64,000 bases of DNA from Neobacillus massiliamazoniensis (GTDB taxonomy: Bacteria > Bacillota > Bacilli > Bacillales > Cytobacillaceae): the NCBI RefSeq assembly GCF_001048695.1, contig NZ_CVRB01000002.1, positions 186,001-250,000 on the forward strand, given 5' to 3'. The notes under the pieces are model-generated. The model had not been told where the DNA came from, did no database searches, and was given only the letters and a program-made list of their open reading frames with translations. This document shows positions 40,602 through 44,682 of the stretch, piece after piece; the stretch's first letter is position 1, and each line of letters opens with the position of its first letter. Made by a program: the position numbers and the translations under genes.

Positions 40602-41783
40602 TCACCTTTGGAGATATTTTTTTCTCCAGGAATAGAGGAGCAATGAAATACTTATCAACATTTGCAATGAAAATAAAGTGGCATCCCAAAATGGAAGAGA
40701 AGCCGGCCCATCTAAAAAACCAGGAAAAACTTTTTTTGAAGCAAACAATAACTGTGGGATATAAAAGCTGATAAAGATAAATAGAGTTAAAAATACCCCT
40801 ATAAAATAAAAGATAGAATAGGAATACACCATTCTTTTTTCCTCGGCAAAAACGACCTCACCGGTTGTTGCTATTCGTAAAAAAGGAATCCACTTTCTCA
40901 TTACCTGCTGAGCATTTTCCATCAAGTTATAGCAGCCCGATATATTTTCAATCACGTAATACAAATCGGTTTTCATATAGACGCCGCATTGATAGACCAT
41001 ACGAATGAAAGTATCAAGAACTACCACATGCATAATACTCAAAAAAATCCCTGACCCGTTTGCAAAAATCAACTGACTAAATAACGCTAGAAAAAGGATT
41101 ACTGTATCAAAACAAATCCCTGCTAAATAAAGGACATTTCGTTCCTTTGATGGTAGTTTCCAAACCGTTGACATATCTGTTTCAATAACAACAATGAATA
41201 AACGGTGTCCAATTTCCAACTTAGTCGGAAGATTTTTTGATCTCATGGCTATCACATGACCAAGTTCATGGATTAATACCAAAGCAGCTGTAATGAACAT
41301 CCATGCCGGAATATTTAAAGCCATAACATTAAAGATAAAAATGTCCTTGTAATGTGGGAATAAAGTAGGATGAGAGATAAGTAGAAAAATATTTACGATA
41401 AAAAGTCCAATATAAACGATATAGGTAAACTTATTAAAAAAGAAGGTTCCCAACTGTGGTGGAATTTTCACAAAGCCTAAGCTCTCCTTCTTCTTTTCCT
41501 TACCCTCAACTTTGGCACCGTCAATTTCCTCAATCAATTGTAACTCTAAAAGCTGCTCCGCAAAATCAAGGAGGTCAACCTCTTCCTCTGGATACTTTCT
41601 CTTAAGATGCGTTTCAATTTCACCTAATAATTCTCCCTTAATCATCAAATTGATGGCATCAATACAAATCATCGGCATTTCATAGAACTCACCTGAGGTG
41701 TGATCCTCGACGATATAATTTTTTTTATCTTTACGAATTTCGATTGGGACTAACGAAAGACGTGAATGGAGTGAAAGATTCAT
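40602..41783 (-). CDS. Membrane M50 metalloprotease with N-terminal PqqD-like domain
   Basis: A 393-residue protein. Residues 10-90 look like a PqqD-type peptide-recognition (RRE) domain: short strands then helices with LLGEIETHLKRKYPEEEVDLLDFAEQLLELQLIEEI. A linker (KVEGKEKKKE) leads to several helices with HELGH (172-176) as zinc site and KTDLYY (271-276) as the probable third ligand region. This is the layout of proteases in ribosomal-peptide clusters such as YydH. It follows the 21-residue peptide gene behind a hairpin, so the peptide is its likely substrate. No radical-SAM or transporter gene is adjacent. Confidence 0.8.
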   Translation of the reverse strand: MNLSLHSRLSLVPIEIRKDKKNYIVEDHTSGEFYEMPMICIDAINLMIKGELLGEIETHLKRKYPEEEVDLLDFAEQLLELQLIEEIDGAKVEGKEKKKESLGFVKIPPQLGTFFFNKFTYIVYIGLFIVNIFLLISHPTLFPHYKDIFIFNVMALNIPAWMFITAALVLIHELGHVIAMRSKNLPTKLEIGHRLFIVVIETDMSTVWKLPSKERNVLYLAGICFDTVILFLALFSQLIFANGSGIFLSIMHVVVLDTFIRMVYQCGVYMKTDLYYVIENISGCYNLMENAQQVMRKWIPFLRIATTGEVVFAEEKRMVYSYSIFYFIGVFLTLFIFISFYIPQLLFASKKVFPGFLDGPASLPFWDATLFSLQMLISISLLLYSWRKKYLQR

Positions 41784-41804
41784 TTTAACACCCTTAAAAA
41801 TTTT

Positions 41805-41844
41805 TATAAAAGAAGGATGCCAAGCAAATACATGGCACCCTCTT
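41805..41844 (-). terminator. Hairpin between the peptide and protease genes
   Basis: Minus strand AAGAGGGTGCCA (41833-41844) pairs with TGGCATCCTTCTT (41810-41822) with one bulge, followed by TTAT. It probably reduces read-through so that more peptide than protease is made. Confidence 0.75.
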
Positions 41845-41858
41845 GATACATAATTTGA

Positions 41859-41924
41859 TTACAACCACGCACACCACCAACATGGACCTGTTGCCTTTAT
41901 TTTTTTAAGCTTACGGATTTTCAT
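41859..41924 (-). CDS. 21-residue peptide ending GPCWWCAWL (candidate signal peptide/RiPP precursor)
   Basis: The gene starts at an ATG placed after AAAGGAGGTGAATCC, the best ribosome binding site in the region, which lies in the last codons of the HD-GYP gene; start and stop overlap as ATGA. The product has a basic leader (MKIRKLKKIKAT) and a hydrophobic C terminus GPCWWCAWL with a Cys-x-x-Cys and three Trp. It is followed by a terminator hairpin and the M50/PqqD-like protease. Size, leader/core split and neighbours fit a processed, possibly modified, secreted peptide. I know of no named family. Confidence 0.75.
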   Translation of the reverse strand: MKIRKLKKIKATGPCWWCAWL

Positions 41925-43105
41925 GGATTCACCTCCTTTAATTGTAGTGGTTCAATGTTGTTTGATAATTTTTTATGAATTTCTACCCAAATAGGAAATA
42001 TTTCTTGAAATAAATCTACTAATTCTGGATCAAATTGCGTATCCCTTCCATCTAGTATACGCTTATAGGCTTCTTCAACAGGTAATGCTGATCGATATGA
42101 CCTCGTTGATGTCATCGCATCAAATGCATCTGCAATTGCTGCAATTCGCGCAAGATAGGGGATCTGTTCTTTTTTCAACTCATCAGGATAACCTTTCCCA
42201 TCCCAACGTTCATGGTGAGAGCGAATCACATCAATACCATTTTGTAATCCCTCTACCTTTGAAACTGCCTCAGCCCCAACTGTAGTGTGTGATTTTATAA
42301 TCTCATATTCTTCTTTTGTAAGTTTAGTAGGTTTCATTAGTATTTGATCTGGAATATGTACTTTACCGATATCATGAAGTAAGCAGGCATAATTAAAGGC
42401 TCTTAACTCATCAACCGTAAATTTCTTAGTTTCTTTTGCTAAAACATGGGCGTATGAGGCAACACGTTCACTATGCCCCTTTGTGTAAGGGTCTTTAAGC
42501 TCTAAGGTTGCAATTACACCTTTTACAATTCCTATAAGCTGATGGTCATAGGATGTTTTTACAGCTTTAACATATGCTTGGAAACGACTTAAAAGGATAC
42601 ATGCAAATACTGACAGAATAGCTATCAATAATAAACTTAATAATGCATTAGGAGCATGAATAATTAATCCAACCAGAAGATATTTCAGAGATAGTCCGAC
42701 AATAACTACTCTTAAAAATGAAGTATTAACAAAAATTGGGGATAACAAAAGCCATAGGACTTCAACTATATTTCCACTTTTATACATTTCTGGTTTTCCA
42801 ATATATGTGATAATATCGTTAAGAAAAGTTAAAAATGTATAACAAGTAAAATAAATATATTTTATTTGATAAGTTTTTTGTTTTTTGTATAAGTACCAGG
42901 CAAGCGGAATCAGAGCAAACATAACCAAATATATCCAAGTCCGTAGAATGTCGGGGGTATCATCTTTTAATGTTGGAATATATTTTGAAATAAAGGTATA
43001 GGAAAAGTCAAACCCAATATAAATAATGTAAAAAAGAACTAAAAACCATTTTACTGTTCTACCTTCTTCATTTATTATATTTGGGTCAATTATTTGTTTT
43101 TTCAT
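41921..43105 (-). CDS. Membrane HD-GYP domain protein (cyclic-di-GMP phosphodiesterase)
   Basis: A 394-residue protein. Residues 18-175 form five or six helices, closely similar to those of the neighbouring kinase (GNIVEVLWLLLSPIFVN; KYLLVGLIIH). Residues 195-380 are an HD-GYP domain with LLHDIGKVHIP (HD at 244-245), SHTTVGAEA, SHHERWDGKGYP (GYP at 305-307), IADAFDAMTSTRSYR, all needed for cyclic-di-GMP hydrolysis. No receiver domain is fused, so input is through the membrane domain. It is the first gene of a transcript with the peptide. Confidence 0.9.
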   Translation of the reverse strand: MKKQIIDPNIINEEGRTVKWFLVLFYIIYIGFDFSYTFISKYIPTLKDDTPDILRTWIYLVMFALIPLAWYLYKKQKTYQIKYIYFTCYTFLTFLNDIITYIGKPEMYKSGNIVEVLWLLLSPIFVNTSFLRVVIVGLSLKYLLVGLIIHAPNALLSLLLIAILSVFACILLSRFQAYVKAVKTSYDHQLIGIVKGVIATLELKDPYTKGHSERVASYAHVLAKETKKFTVDELRAFNYACLLHDIGKVHIPDQILMKPTKLTKEEYEIIKSHTTVGAEAVSKVEGLQNGIDVIRSHHERWDGKGYPDELKKEQIPYLARIAAIADAFDAMTSTRSYRSALPVEEAYKRILDGRDTQFDPELVDLFQEIFPIWVEIHKKLSNNIEPLQLKEVNP

Positions 43106-43280
43106 ATAGAGACCTCACGTTATATAAATCCCTTATTCTCACACTTCTATAAAAATTGAGTTTCTATATTGCACTTTTCTACATTATAAATCATTAATTT
43201 TATTAGAAGTATAAAAAATTTGAAGATTTATGTAAAATAATAGATTATTTTAGGTTTTTAGGAATTAATTTGAAATTCAA

Positions 43281-44531
43281 TTAAAAGAAAGCTTTTGATT
43301 GTTGTAATGGCAGCAAAATTTCTACAGTAGTTCCTTTCTCTGAAATACTCTTGATATTGAGTACACCCTTATGATCTTTAATAATTTGATTTGATACCAT
43401 TAAACCAAGCCCCGTTCCTTCCTTTTTAGTAGTAAAGAACGGCTCAACTAAATTGGGAATGTTTTCTTCGGGAATTCCGCACCCTTCATCTTCAATAGCA
43501 ACGTACAGCTTTTGACCTAAAATAGTTTTCAGCTTAATTTTTATCCTTCCTCCTTCACTCATAGCTTCAATTGCATTTTTGATTAAATTAATAAACACTT
43601 GCTTCAACTGTTTTTCATCACAATAAATAGGTGGCAATGGTTCTTCAGTAATCGTTTCAATCGTTACACCCTTTCCTTGTGCCTGCTGTTGTGTAATAGA
43701 TGTGGTATAGGCAATTATTTCTTCAATGTTAGATTTTTCAAATGTAATTACCCTCGGTTTTCCAAGATCCATCAAATCACTGACTATGGAATTAATACGG
43801 TCGACTTCTTCAATCATAATTGGATAAAAATCATTTGTATTTGGATAACTTTCCCTTTGCAGTTGTATAAATCCTTTTAATGAGGAAAGTGGATTGCGAA
43901 TTTCATGACCAATTGCTGTAGACATTTGACCAATAACAGCAAGCTTTTCTTTTTGTAGCAATTCTTCATGCATATCGGTAAGTGTATTTATATAGGAAAA
44001 AAATCGATTTAAAATGGTGAATGCAATAGCTGAAATCGGAAGAAGGATAATCATTGGGTAAAGCACGACTTTATCATGTAAAATAAGCCCAATGAAAAAG
44101 TATTTCCCAATTATTCCAATTGTAACGGTCCAAAAGTATTTTTTACTAACAAAAACTGGTGAAAAAACTACGAACAAAATTTCAACAATGTTACCAGCTG
44201 AAAATGTCTTTGTCGAGCCTAAATAAATTATAAGATTATTAACCGTATCTAAAATTATATATCCAAAAAGGTATAAATATTTAACCGGATAGGGGTTATC
44301 TTTTTTTATTAAATAGAATGCAATTGGCAGTAGCCCCAATATCAAAACATAAAGCCAAAGGCCGAGACCTGTGTTTAAAATACCAATTGTCTCTTTTTTT
44401 GCATAAATAGGGATTAAAATGTCATAAAATAAATCAAATGAAATATAAAAGATGTAAAATAACCAAAGAAATAATTTAATAGCCTTTTTCTCTTCAAATA
44501 CTAATTTAGGACTTTTTATCCCTTCATTCAT
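43281..44531 (-). CDS. Orphan sporulation-type membrane histidine kinase
   Basis: A 416-residue kinase: the N-terminal helices (to about 180) are homologous to those of the HD-GYP protein next door (GNIVEILFVVFSPVFVS; KYFFIGLILH). HisKA follows with the phospho-His in GQMSTAIGHEIRNPLSSLKGFIQL, then HATPase (NLIKNAIEAM, DEGCGIP, KKEGTGLGL). The H-box is typical of phosphorelay kinases such as KinA-KinE that phosphorylate Spo0F. No response regulator is adjacent, in agreement. ATG start ten bases after GGAG; an upstream TTG is less likely. Confidence 0.88.
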   Translation of the reverse strand: MNEGIKSPKLVFEEKKAIKLFLWLFYIFYISFDLFYDILIPIYAKKETIGILNTGLGLWLYVLILGLLPIAFYLIKKDNPYPVKYLYLFGYIILDTVNNLIIYLGSTKTFSAGNIVEILFVVFSPVFVSKKYFWTVTIGIIGKYFFIGLILHDKVVLYPMIILLPISAIAFTILNRFFSYINTLTDMHEELLQKEKLAVIGQMSTAIGHEIRNPLSSLKGFIQLQRESYPNTNDFYPIMIEEVDRINSIVSDLMDLGKPRVITFEKSNIEEIIAYTTSITQQQAQGKGVTIETITEEPLPPIYCDEKQLKQVFINLIKNAIEAMSEGGRIKIKLKTILGQKLYVAIEDEGCGIPEENIPNLVEPFFTTKKEGTGLGLMVSNQIIKDHKGVLNIKSISEKGTTVEILLPLQQSKAFF

Positions 44532-44682
44532 TTTCGAAACGCTCCGTTCCAGACTTATCAATAAAATTTCTGAAAACTATAATTAATTGTTATCTCTTCC
44601 TATTGTACCATCTTTTACTAATAAAATTGATATTTTTTTAAAAAAAATCGATTGGAATCGACAAAAAGTCCTACAAATCGAC

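Follow-up and report, generated by a model that had tools for sequence, protein, structure and literature searches.

The window analysed here, a stretch of 64,000 nucleotides from the 5.6 Mb genome of Neobacillus massiliamazoniensis (whose closest named relatives are mostly members of Neobacillus), contains on its minus strand a compact group of genes centred on a very short open reading frame (ORF), MKIRKLKKIKATGPCWWCAWL, which encodes a peptide with a CWxC core (Table 1). The order of transcription is MASE12 histidine kinase, MASE12-HD-GYP protein, peptide, hairpin and, finally, a membrane protease with an N-terminal RRE (RiPP recognition element, where RiPP stands for ribosomally synthesized and post-translationally modified peptide). 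The ATG codon of the peptide shares an ATGA overlap with the TGA stop codon of the HD-GYP gene. An earlier note on this DNA, made from the sequence of the window alone, had listed the peptide, its strong ribosome binding site (RBS), the ATGA overlap, the HD-GYP gene, the hairpin, the HELGH protease and the upstream kinase; all of these parts were found, all on the minus strand. Promoter-like sites show no excess in the region (19, as compared with 20.8 in shuffled sequences).

Table 1. Genes and sequence elements of the peptide locus, in positions of the window
Feature	Positions	Strand	Remarks
MASE12 histidine kinase	43281..44531	minus	optional fourth gene; ATG start, ORF list also permits TTG at 44561
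MASE12-HD-GYP protein	41921..43105	minus	membrane sensor domain, modelled with six helices, and HD-GYP phosphodiesterase domain; candidate receptor
RBS of the peptide gene, AAAGGAGGTG	41930..41939	minus	strong; read from the sequence; similar sites in relatives
Precursor peptide gene, MKIRKLKKIKATGPCWWCAWL	41859..41924	minus	21 aa; basic leader (residues 1-10, conserved) and CWxC core
Terminator-like hairpin	41814..41841	minus	separates the peptide gene from the protease gene; T-rich tail behind a stem GGxTGC..GCATCC
RRE-site-2 protease (M50)	40602..41783	minus	HELGH at residues 172-176
RRE (PqqD-like) domain of the protease	41508..41783	minus	residues 1-92; acidic

The peptide gene and its partners

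The 21-codon ORF is a real gene rather than a product of chance. Among 72 named loci, collected as matches to the protease profile, the protease is preceded in 71 by a CWxC peptide that shares this basic leader, and in an order-wide sample of 397 genomes such a peptide lies upstream of the protease in all 43 genomes that contain it at E < 1e-100 (a cut-off of our own choice, placed in the gap between 1.2e-107 and 6.6e-65; 18 more genomes have weaker matches only). Within the genus, 58 of the 61 genomes have a protease match, and a tiny ORF with an RBS is found upstream of the protease in 29 of the 30 loci drawn from these 58 genomes, counting the window's own; the same-genus, named-locus and order-wide sets partly overlap. 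The earlier note had staked its reading on the conservation of the peptide beside homologous proteases, and such conservation is what these counts reveal.

The same-genus peptides begin with MKIRKLKK[VI]K or a near variant of it; then come a short spacer, the CW[WVI]C motif and a tail that varies. When the 71 peptides of the named loci are taken together with that of the window, both Cys residues, the first Trp and Leu6 are invariant in 72/72, the second Trp is W in 66/72, and the first ten residues carry a mean charge of +5.8. Pairwise comparison of 13 codons across these peptides yields 11688 synonymous and 3143 non-synonymous differences, whereas random single-base changes would give 1292 and 7132, respectively; the peptide is under strong purifying selection at the protein level. 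No Pfam or NCBIfam model matched it.

The few irregular loci deserve a brief description. The one exception among the 30 loci of the same genus (L019) has a group II intron between peptide and protease, the end of which, upstream of the protease, was recognised by eye. In Neobacillus mesonae (L103, 3998-5992) a group II intron (Rfam) is located directly after the hairpin, between the protease and the peptide, which precedes the intron; in both loci the intron would keep the peptide and protease genes apart until spliced. The single named locus without a full peptide (L164, 1400-2000, Gracilibacillus boraciitolerans) is a decayed copy, in which an ATG stands directly before CWWC and the leader is lost, the HD-GYP gene is split over two ORFs, and the protease is matched only from residue 266; the peptide leader and the RRE domain of the protease have been lost together.

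The invariant unit consists of three genes, those of the MASE12-HD-GYP protein, the peptide and the protease, with the MASE12 kinase as an optional fourth. The three occur together in 71 of the 72 named loci, and in all 43 order-wide genomes with the protease an HD-GYP motif is encoded on the strand of the peptide, 281-334 nt ahead of it. MASE12 scores above the family cut-off in 42 of these 43 genomes, as compared with 10 of the 354 that lack the protease (Fisher p 6e-46, kinship ignored; the 2 x 2 table does not count two MASE12 matches, in G128 and G136, that fall below the cut-off). In the one protease genome without a MASE12 match (G065), the contig begins within the HD-GYP gene and lacks the greater part of the sensor domain; farther on there is a frame shift. 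A single MASE12 match is present in 16 of the 42 genomes, and the kinase is therefore optional. Among the named loci, a full-length MASE12 kinase ORF is present in 63/72; in the rest it is cut by contig ends, split, or missing (e.g. in L157-L159). The split kinase, that of Neobacillus pocheonensis (L094, 3145-4382), occupies two ORFs, as would befit a dispensable gene. Two gene orders are found in the named loci, with the kinase either ahead of the HD-GYP gene, the peptide and the protease or behind them. In a wider sample of the class (378 genomes), a strong protease match was found in three genomes of another order, all three of which also have the HD-GYP motif and the peptide, and one of these three proteases contains an internal stop codon; in a sample of the phylum (348 genomes), MASE12 occurs solely in the window's own genome.

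The peptide and protease genes are separated by the hairpin. By a strict rule, a hairpin with a T-rich tail is present in 43 of the 72 loci, including the window, and its stem score is attained by 2.8 % of shuffled sequences, to which the T rule was not applied. In 16 loci picked for a clear hairpin, a choice that biases the counts of pairing in favour of the stem, all seven outer pairs are kept in 16/16, and two-sided changes occur at three stem pairs. A stock terminator scan reported 4 sites in the region, the hairpin between the window's peptide and protease not being among them. The terminator-like hairpin would confer polarity, with more peptide made than protease.

In trpL, the model of attenuation by a leader peptide, codons of the translated leader control transcription beyond it, and one could imagine that the CWxC peptide plays such a part, its tandem Trp/Cys codons before the hairpin sensing tRNA charging and thereby setting the transcription of the protease. 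WW is present in 66/72 peptides, a GGATGC-like arm, present in 67 loci, begins 25-75 nt after the second of the paired codons, and the longest complement of this arm within the peptide region slightly exceeds that in shuffles (7.1 as compared with 6.4). However, in the fold of lowest energy the arm pairs with downstream sequence in 62 of the 67 loci and with upstream sequence in only 5, the leader MKIRKLKKxK, which is free of Trp and Cys, is kept at the protein level through synonymous changes, and attenuation leaves both the RRE domain and the covariation with the HD-GYP protein (described below) unexplained. We therefore regard it as extremely improbable.

Covariation with the HD-GYP protein

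The core of the peptide follows the HD-GYP protein more than it follows the protease or the kinase. In the 65 of the 72 loci in which all four genes are full ORFs, and which were used for the distance correlations and trees, distances between peptide cores show rank correlations of 0.46 and 0.48 with those of the two HD-GYP protein parts and of 0.32 with those of both kinase parts. Tracking of the protease was also looked for and is weaker than that of the HD-GYP protein (0.23 for the RRE, 0.31 for the membrane part). The kinase and the protease correlate with each other at 0.74-0.82. Given the output domains of the HD-GYP protein and the kinase, the membrane part of the protease retains a partial r of 0.06 (p 0.19), while the sensor domain of the kinase has a partial r of 0.115 (p 0.037) given its own output domain and of 0.07 (p 0.13) with further controls.

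The same tendency is seen in the trees. If the peptides are divided by their spacer (TT, AT or TP versus any other, the latter in 18 of the 72), the HD-GYP tree requires 2 changes of peptide type over 65 tips, whereas the protease tree requires 9 and the kinase tree 8; with shuffled labels, the HD-GYP, protease and kinase trees require on average 16.2, 16.3 and 14.5 changes, with minima of 12, 11 and 9. The 12 members of the Neobacillus group with other spacers form one HD-GYP clade (support 0.978), and their common ancestor spans 44 tips on the protease tree and 41 on the kinase tree. At the level of individual positions, none of the 426 in the kinase and none of the 393 in the protease separates the two peptide groups, as compared with 48 of the 394 in the HD-GYP protein; the groups in this comparison, from which L132 was left out, were defined by the HD-GYP clade itself, so that the HD-GYP count is partly circular and only the zeros are informative.

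The peptide gene overlaps the HD-GYP gene or lies within 91 nt of it (it overlaps in the window and in 36 of the 71 named loci), and in 61 of the 71 it is also only 40-115 nt away from the protease ORF. Because the peptide is close to both genes, distance alone does not account for its following the HD-GYP side. Covariation of this kind would be expected of an HD-GYP protein that senses the mature peptide.

The invariance of both Cys residues in 72/72 peptides would also suit a redox or metal sensor, in which the CxxC pair switches between states by forming a disulfide or binding a metal, cutting or sensing being limited to one of them. However, such a switch has no need for variable tails that follow the type of the HD-GYP protein, and we consider it very unlikely.

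Protease, sensors and a possible peptide signal

According to the AlphaFold2 model (mean pLDDT 86.3, pTM 0.82), the protease is composed of an RRE domain, of the kind that binds leader peptides, joined to a site-2-type protease. The N-terminal part of the model superimposes on RRE domains whose structures include a bound leader, those of TbiB1 (Z 10.1, rmsd 2.5 over 79) and of the lasso B1 protein (Z 9.9, rmsd 2.4 over 80), and the same RRE chains are the top Foldseek matches (probability 1.00, but E only 0.17). The membrane part resembles SpoIVFB (Z 8.9, rmsd 4.5 over 158) and the site-2 protease of M. jannaschii (Z 8.0, rmsd 3.9 over 143). H172, E173 and H176 of the HExxH motif are invariant in 47/47 aligned proteases, as is D273, presumably the third zinc ligand. 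At the level of sequence models, Pfam returned only a weak M50 match (E 0.00036, 20.4 bits, under the curated cut-off of 27.2), NCBIfam gave no match to the protease, and a sequence search of the PDB with the protease profile gave no match. The PqqD-like N terminus proposed in the earlier note is thus borne out by the structure model, though the Pfam sequence models miss the RRE. This part of the protease is acidic, with a mean net charge of -9.5 in the 72 loci. Plasmid-borne relatives of the protease (27 records) are all below 60 % identity.

The two upstream proteins, taken for two receptors in the earlier note, carry one common membrane domain, MASE12 (Pfam E 3.5e-31 and 1.4e-28), combined with the output domains HD_5 in one case and HisKA/HATPase in the other. 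MASE12 was found in all 47 aligned HD-GYP proteins, in which the GYP motif and D245 are invariant and H244 is kept in 90 % or more. The HD-GYP domain of the model matches that of PA4781 with Z 27.2 (rmsd 1.9 over 203), and the features that define an HD-GYP phosphodiesterase, i.e. the HD and HHExWDGxGYP motifs and the HD-GYP fold, are all present. In a fold search with the MASE12-HD-GYP model, the list was filled by matches to the HD-GYP domain. Since the helices of MASE12 in the model are separated by short loops only, binding of a hydrophobic ligand would have to take place within the membrane or close to it. For MASE12, only two papers were listed in the open-access PMC library, both on other subjects to judge by their titles, and none on the peptide, the MASE12 proteins or the protease was among the matches listed there (subscription journals and preprints were outside the scope).

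The neighbourhood of the 72 loci was surveyed for the 22 largest families of ORFs of at least 100 aa, in flanks of at most ~6 kb. Besides the MASE12 proteins and the protease, none of these families recurs in all clades, and no modifying enzyme, transporter or exporter, immunity gene or response regulator recurs across clades. This agrees with the suggestion of the earlier note that the locus may be a minimal system devoid of a modifying enzyme. The linked modifying enzyme expected of a RiPP cluster was not seen, although such an enzyme might be unlinked or encoded by a shorter ORF. The next commonest families occur in 45 of the 72 loci, all from the Neobacillus and Mesobacillus groups. In the 8 loci of the Fredinandcohnia group a response regulator gene (read from its sequence) adjoins the HD-GYP gene. 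In all 8 loci of that group (L143, L146, L147, L154-L156, L160, L161) the unit comes after genes which, judging by their sequences, we take to resemble a LiaFSR/PspA envelope-stress operon.

We propose that the cassette is probably a peptide-signalling system, in which the MASE12-HD-GYP protein acts as the receptor of the mature CWxC core. The basic leader, with its IxxLxx[VI] motif, would be bound by the acidic RRE domain, and the fused site-2 protease would cut it at or in the membrane, so that the CWxC-containing core is set free, either outside the cell or within the membrane. This mature core would then be sensed by the MASE12 domain of the adjoining HD-GYP protein, with a change in the hydrolysis of cyclic di-GMP (c-di-GMP) as the result, while the MASE12 kinase, where present, may read the same or a related cue and feed a phosphorelay as a second output. 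The earlier note supposed that the protease cleaves and exports the peptide and that two receptors sense it. The cleavage and the sensing fit the RRE-site-2 architecture and the shared MASE12 domain, but the two-receptor unit is not retained, as the kinase lies outside the invariant core and has no position that splits the peptide groups, and it is the HD-GYP protein that follows the peptide type.

Several points must be set against this proposal. The analysis shows the reality, conservation and linkage of the peptide gene, the RRE fold, the site-2-like fold with HExxH, the shared sensor domain and the covariation of the core with the HD-GYP protein, and from these we infer that the peptide is cleaved, exported and bound, and which outputs follow. 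According to the fold tool's own note, Z values below ~13 count as weak for mostly helical folds. The rule for labelling the spacer types was chosen after the HD-GYP tree had been seen, and the protease tree (9 changes, shuffled minimum 11) and the kinase tree (8, minimum 9) also beat every shuffle, so that some of the peptide-type signal is common to all trees. Within the HD-GYP protein, the sensor domain has a modest partial r of 0.175 given the output domain, and the output domain a higher one of 0.23 given the sensor; hence the signal is not specific to the sensor. Given the RRE, a partial r of 0.209 is likewise reached by the protease's membrane part. The covariation could also represent hitch-hiking, i.e. 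the exchange of overlapping peptide and HD-GYP genes as a block, with no functional need behind it. Ten order-wide genomes (L165-L174) hold a MASE12 kinase in the absence of such a protease; their MASE12 proteins score best against the kinase of the window, and there is neither a CWxC ORF within 700 nt of the kinase nor a MASE12-HD-GYP gene nearby. As these genomes keep the kinase without the peptide or the protease, MASE12 can act without a CWxC peptide.

Finally, no exporter recurs across clades in the surveyed flanks. This agrees with another scenario, in which the peptide is not exported at all but, cut or uncut, stays in the membrane or cytosol of the same cell, where it would serve as a small regulatory subunit, bound either to the protease or to the MASE12 bundle of the HD-GYP protein. 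The short and hydrophobic nature of the core would suit such a subunit, as would the adjacency or overlap of the peptide and HD-GYP genes and their covariation. On the other hand, the diversity of the core, arranged in two specificity-like groups, resembles a signal between cells more than a fixed subunit, and an RRE-protease suggests processing. On balance, we find the subunit unlikely.

If the peptide-signalling proposal is true, the sensor domain MASE12 gains a ligand, a peptide is tied to c-di-GMP with no intervening response regulator, and an RRE-site-2 protease is found to serve signalling without a linked peptide-modifying enzyme. More tentatively, the cassette may stand for a new class of bacterial peptide signalling: once released by such a protease, a CWxC peptide would gate the breakdown of c-di-GMP directly via MASE12-HD-GYP, with swappable specificity groups and with MASE12 as a peptide-sensing domain. 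The unit is directly testable, because it is small (three genes) and occurs in many named, sequenced Bacillaceae.

Relation to known systems and distant relatives

In its logic, the cassette is closest to the Agr system, where a precursor peptide, a membrane protease and a polytopic sensor are encoded in one operon, and where specificity groups exist in which peptide and receptor change together. However, the Agr protease, AgrB, belongs to the cysteine proteases, its peptide AgrD is trimmed at both ends and converted into a thiolactone, and AgrC is a kinase with AgrA as its regulator, whereas the present cassette has a metalloprotease with an RRE, an HD-GYP protein as the candidate receptor and an optional kinase. 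No AgrB-type protease lies beside the peptide in the named loci, in which it is flanked by the HD-GYP and M50 genes (no AgrB model was run on the genome).

As for the architecture of the protease, the excerpts of PMC10036551 that deal with daptide clusters describe an RRE fused N-terminally to an intramembrane site-2 protease, beside short co-occurring ORFs, and in this fusion and its short neighbours the two systems are alike. The oxidative decarboxylase, the aminotransferase and the ELExMEAP precursor motif given for daptides in the same excerpts (PMC10036551) were, however, not seen here, either in the peptide alignment or in the neighbourhood survey.

Another membrane M50 protease with a small peptide is EpeP of B. 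subtilis, which, in the parts of PMC10885120 and PMC12871923 that concern it, processes and is thought to export the epipeptide EpeX, a toxin; deletion of epeP did not fully stop epipeptide production (PMC10885120). That system includes an epimerase, EpeE, and an immunity transporter, EpeAB (PMC12871923, in the same parts), whereas in the present loci no such genes recur and the sensors do. The precedent of a toxin matured by an M50 protease (cleavage and export being presumed for EpeP), together with the cationic and Trp-rich character of the precursor, might suggest that the CWxC peptide is an antimicrobial or cannibalism peptide released by the RRE-protease, with the sensors regulating its production. 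However, its invariant partner is an HD-GYP protein, the families recurring across clades include neither an immunity gene nor a transporter, and the presence of a protease match in 58/61 genomes of the genus is more like a house system. We therefore hold an antimicrobial role to be quite improbable and continue to favour signalling.

The nearest relatives of the protease belong to loci with ThiF and PqqD-M50 proteins; they are of the same RRE-M50 type, with E values of about 1e-28 to 1e-66, and a ThiF-family neighbour was identified by Pfam in L185 and L196, the only two scanned. Neither a CWxC peptide nor MASE12 was seen in the stretches examined. Small CPTCG ORFs upstream of distant M50 relatives were considered as a second peptide family and rejected, the ORF in L185 being the in-frame end of the ThiF-family protein; a CPTC stretch like this ThiF end is also present upstream in 11/11 further relatives (L219-L229). 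A small ORF of basic character, MKLKVKKLKAVKLPMFRWQT, is present in L196 (5994-6056), where it precedes the gene of a second, distant RRE-M50 protease in the vicinity of a ThiF-family gene; judging from this single case, it is possible that it encodes the precursor of another peptide system.

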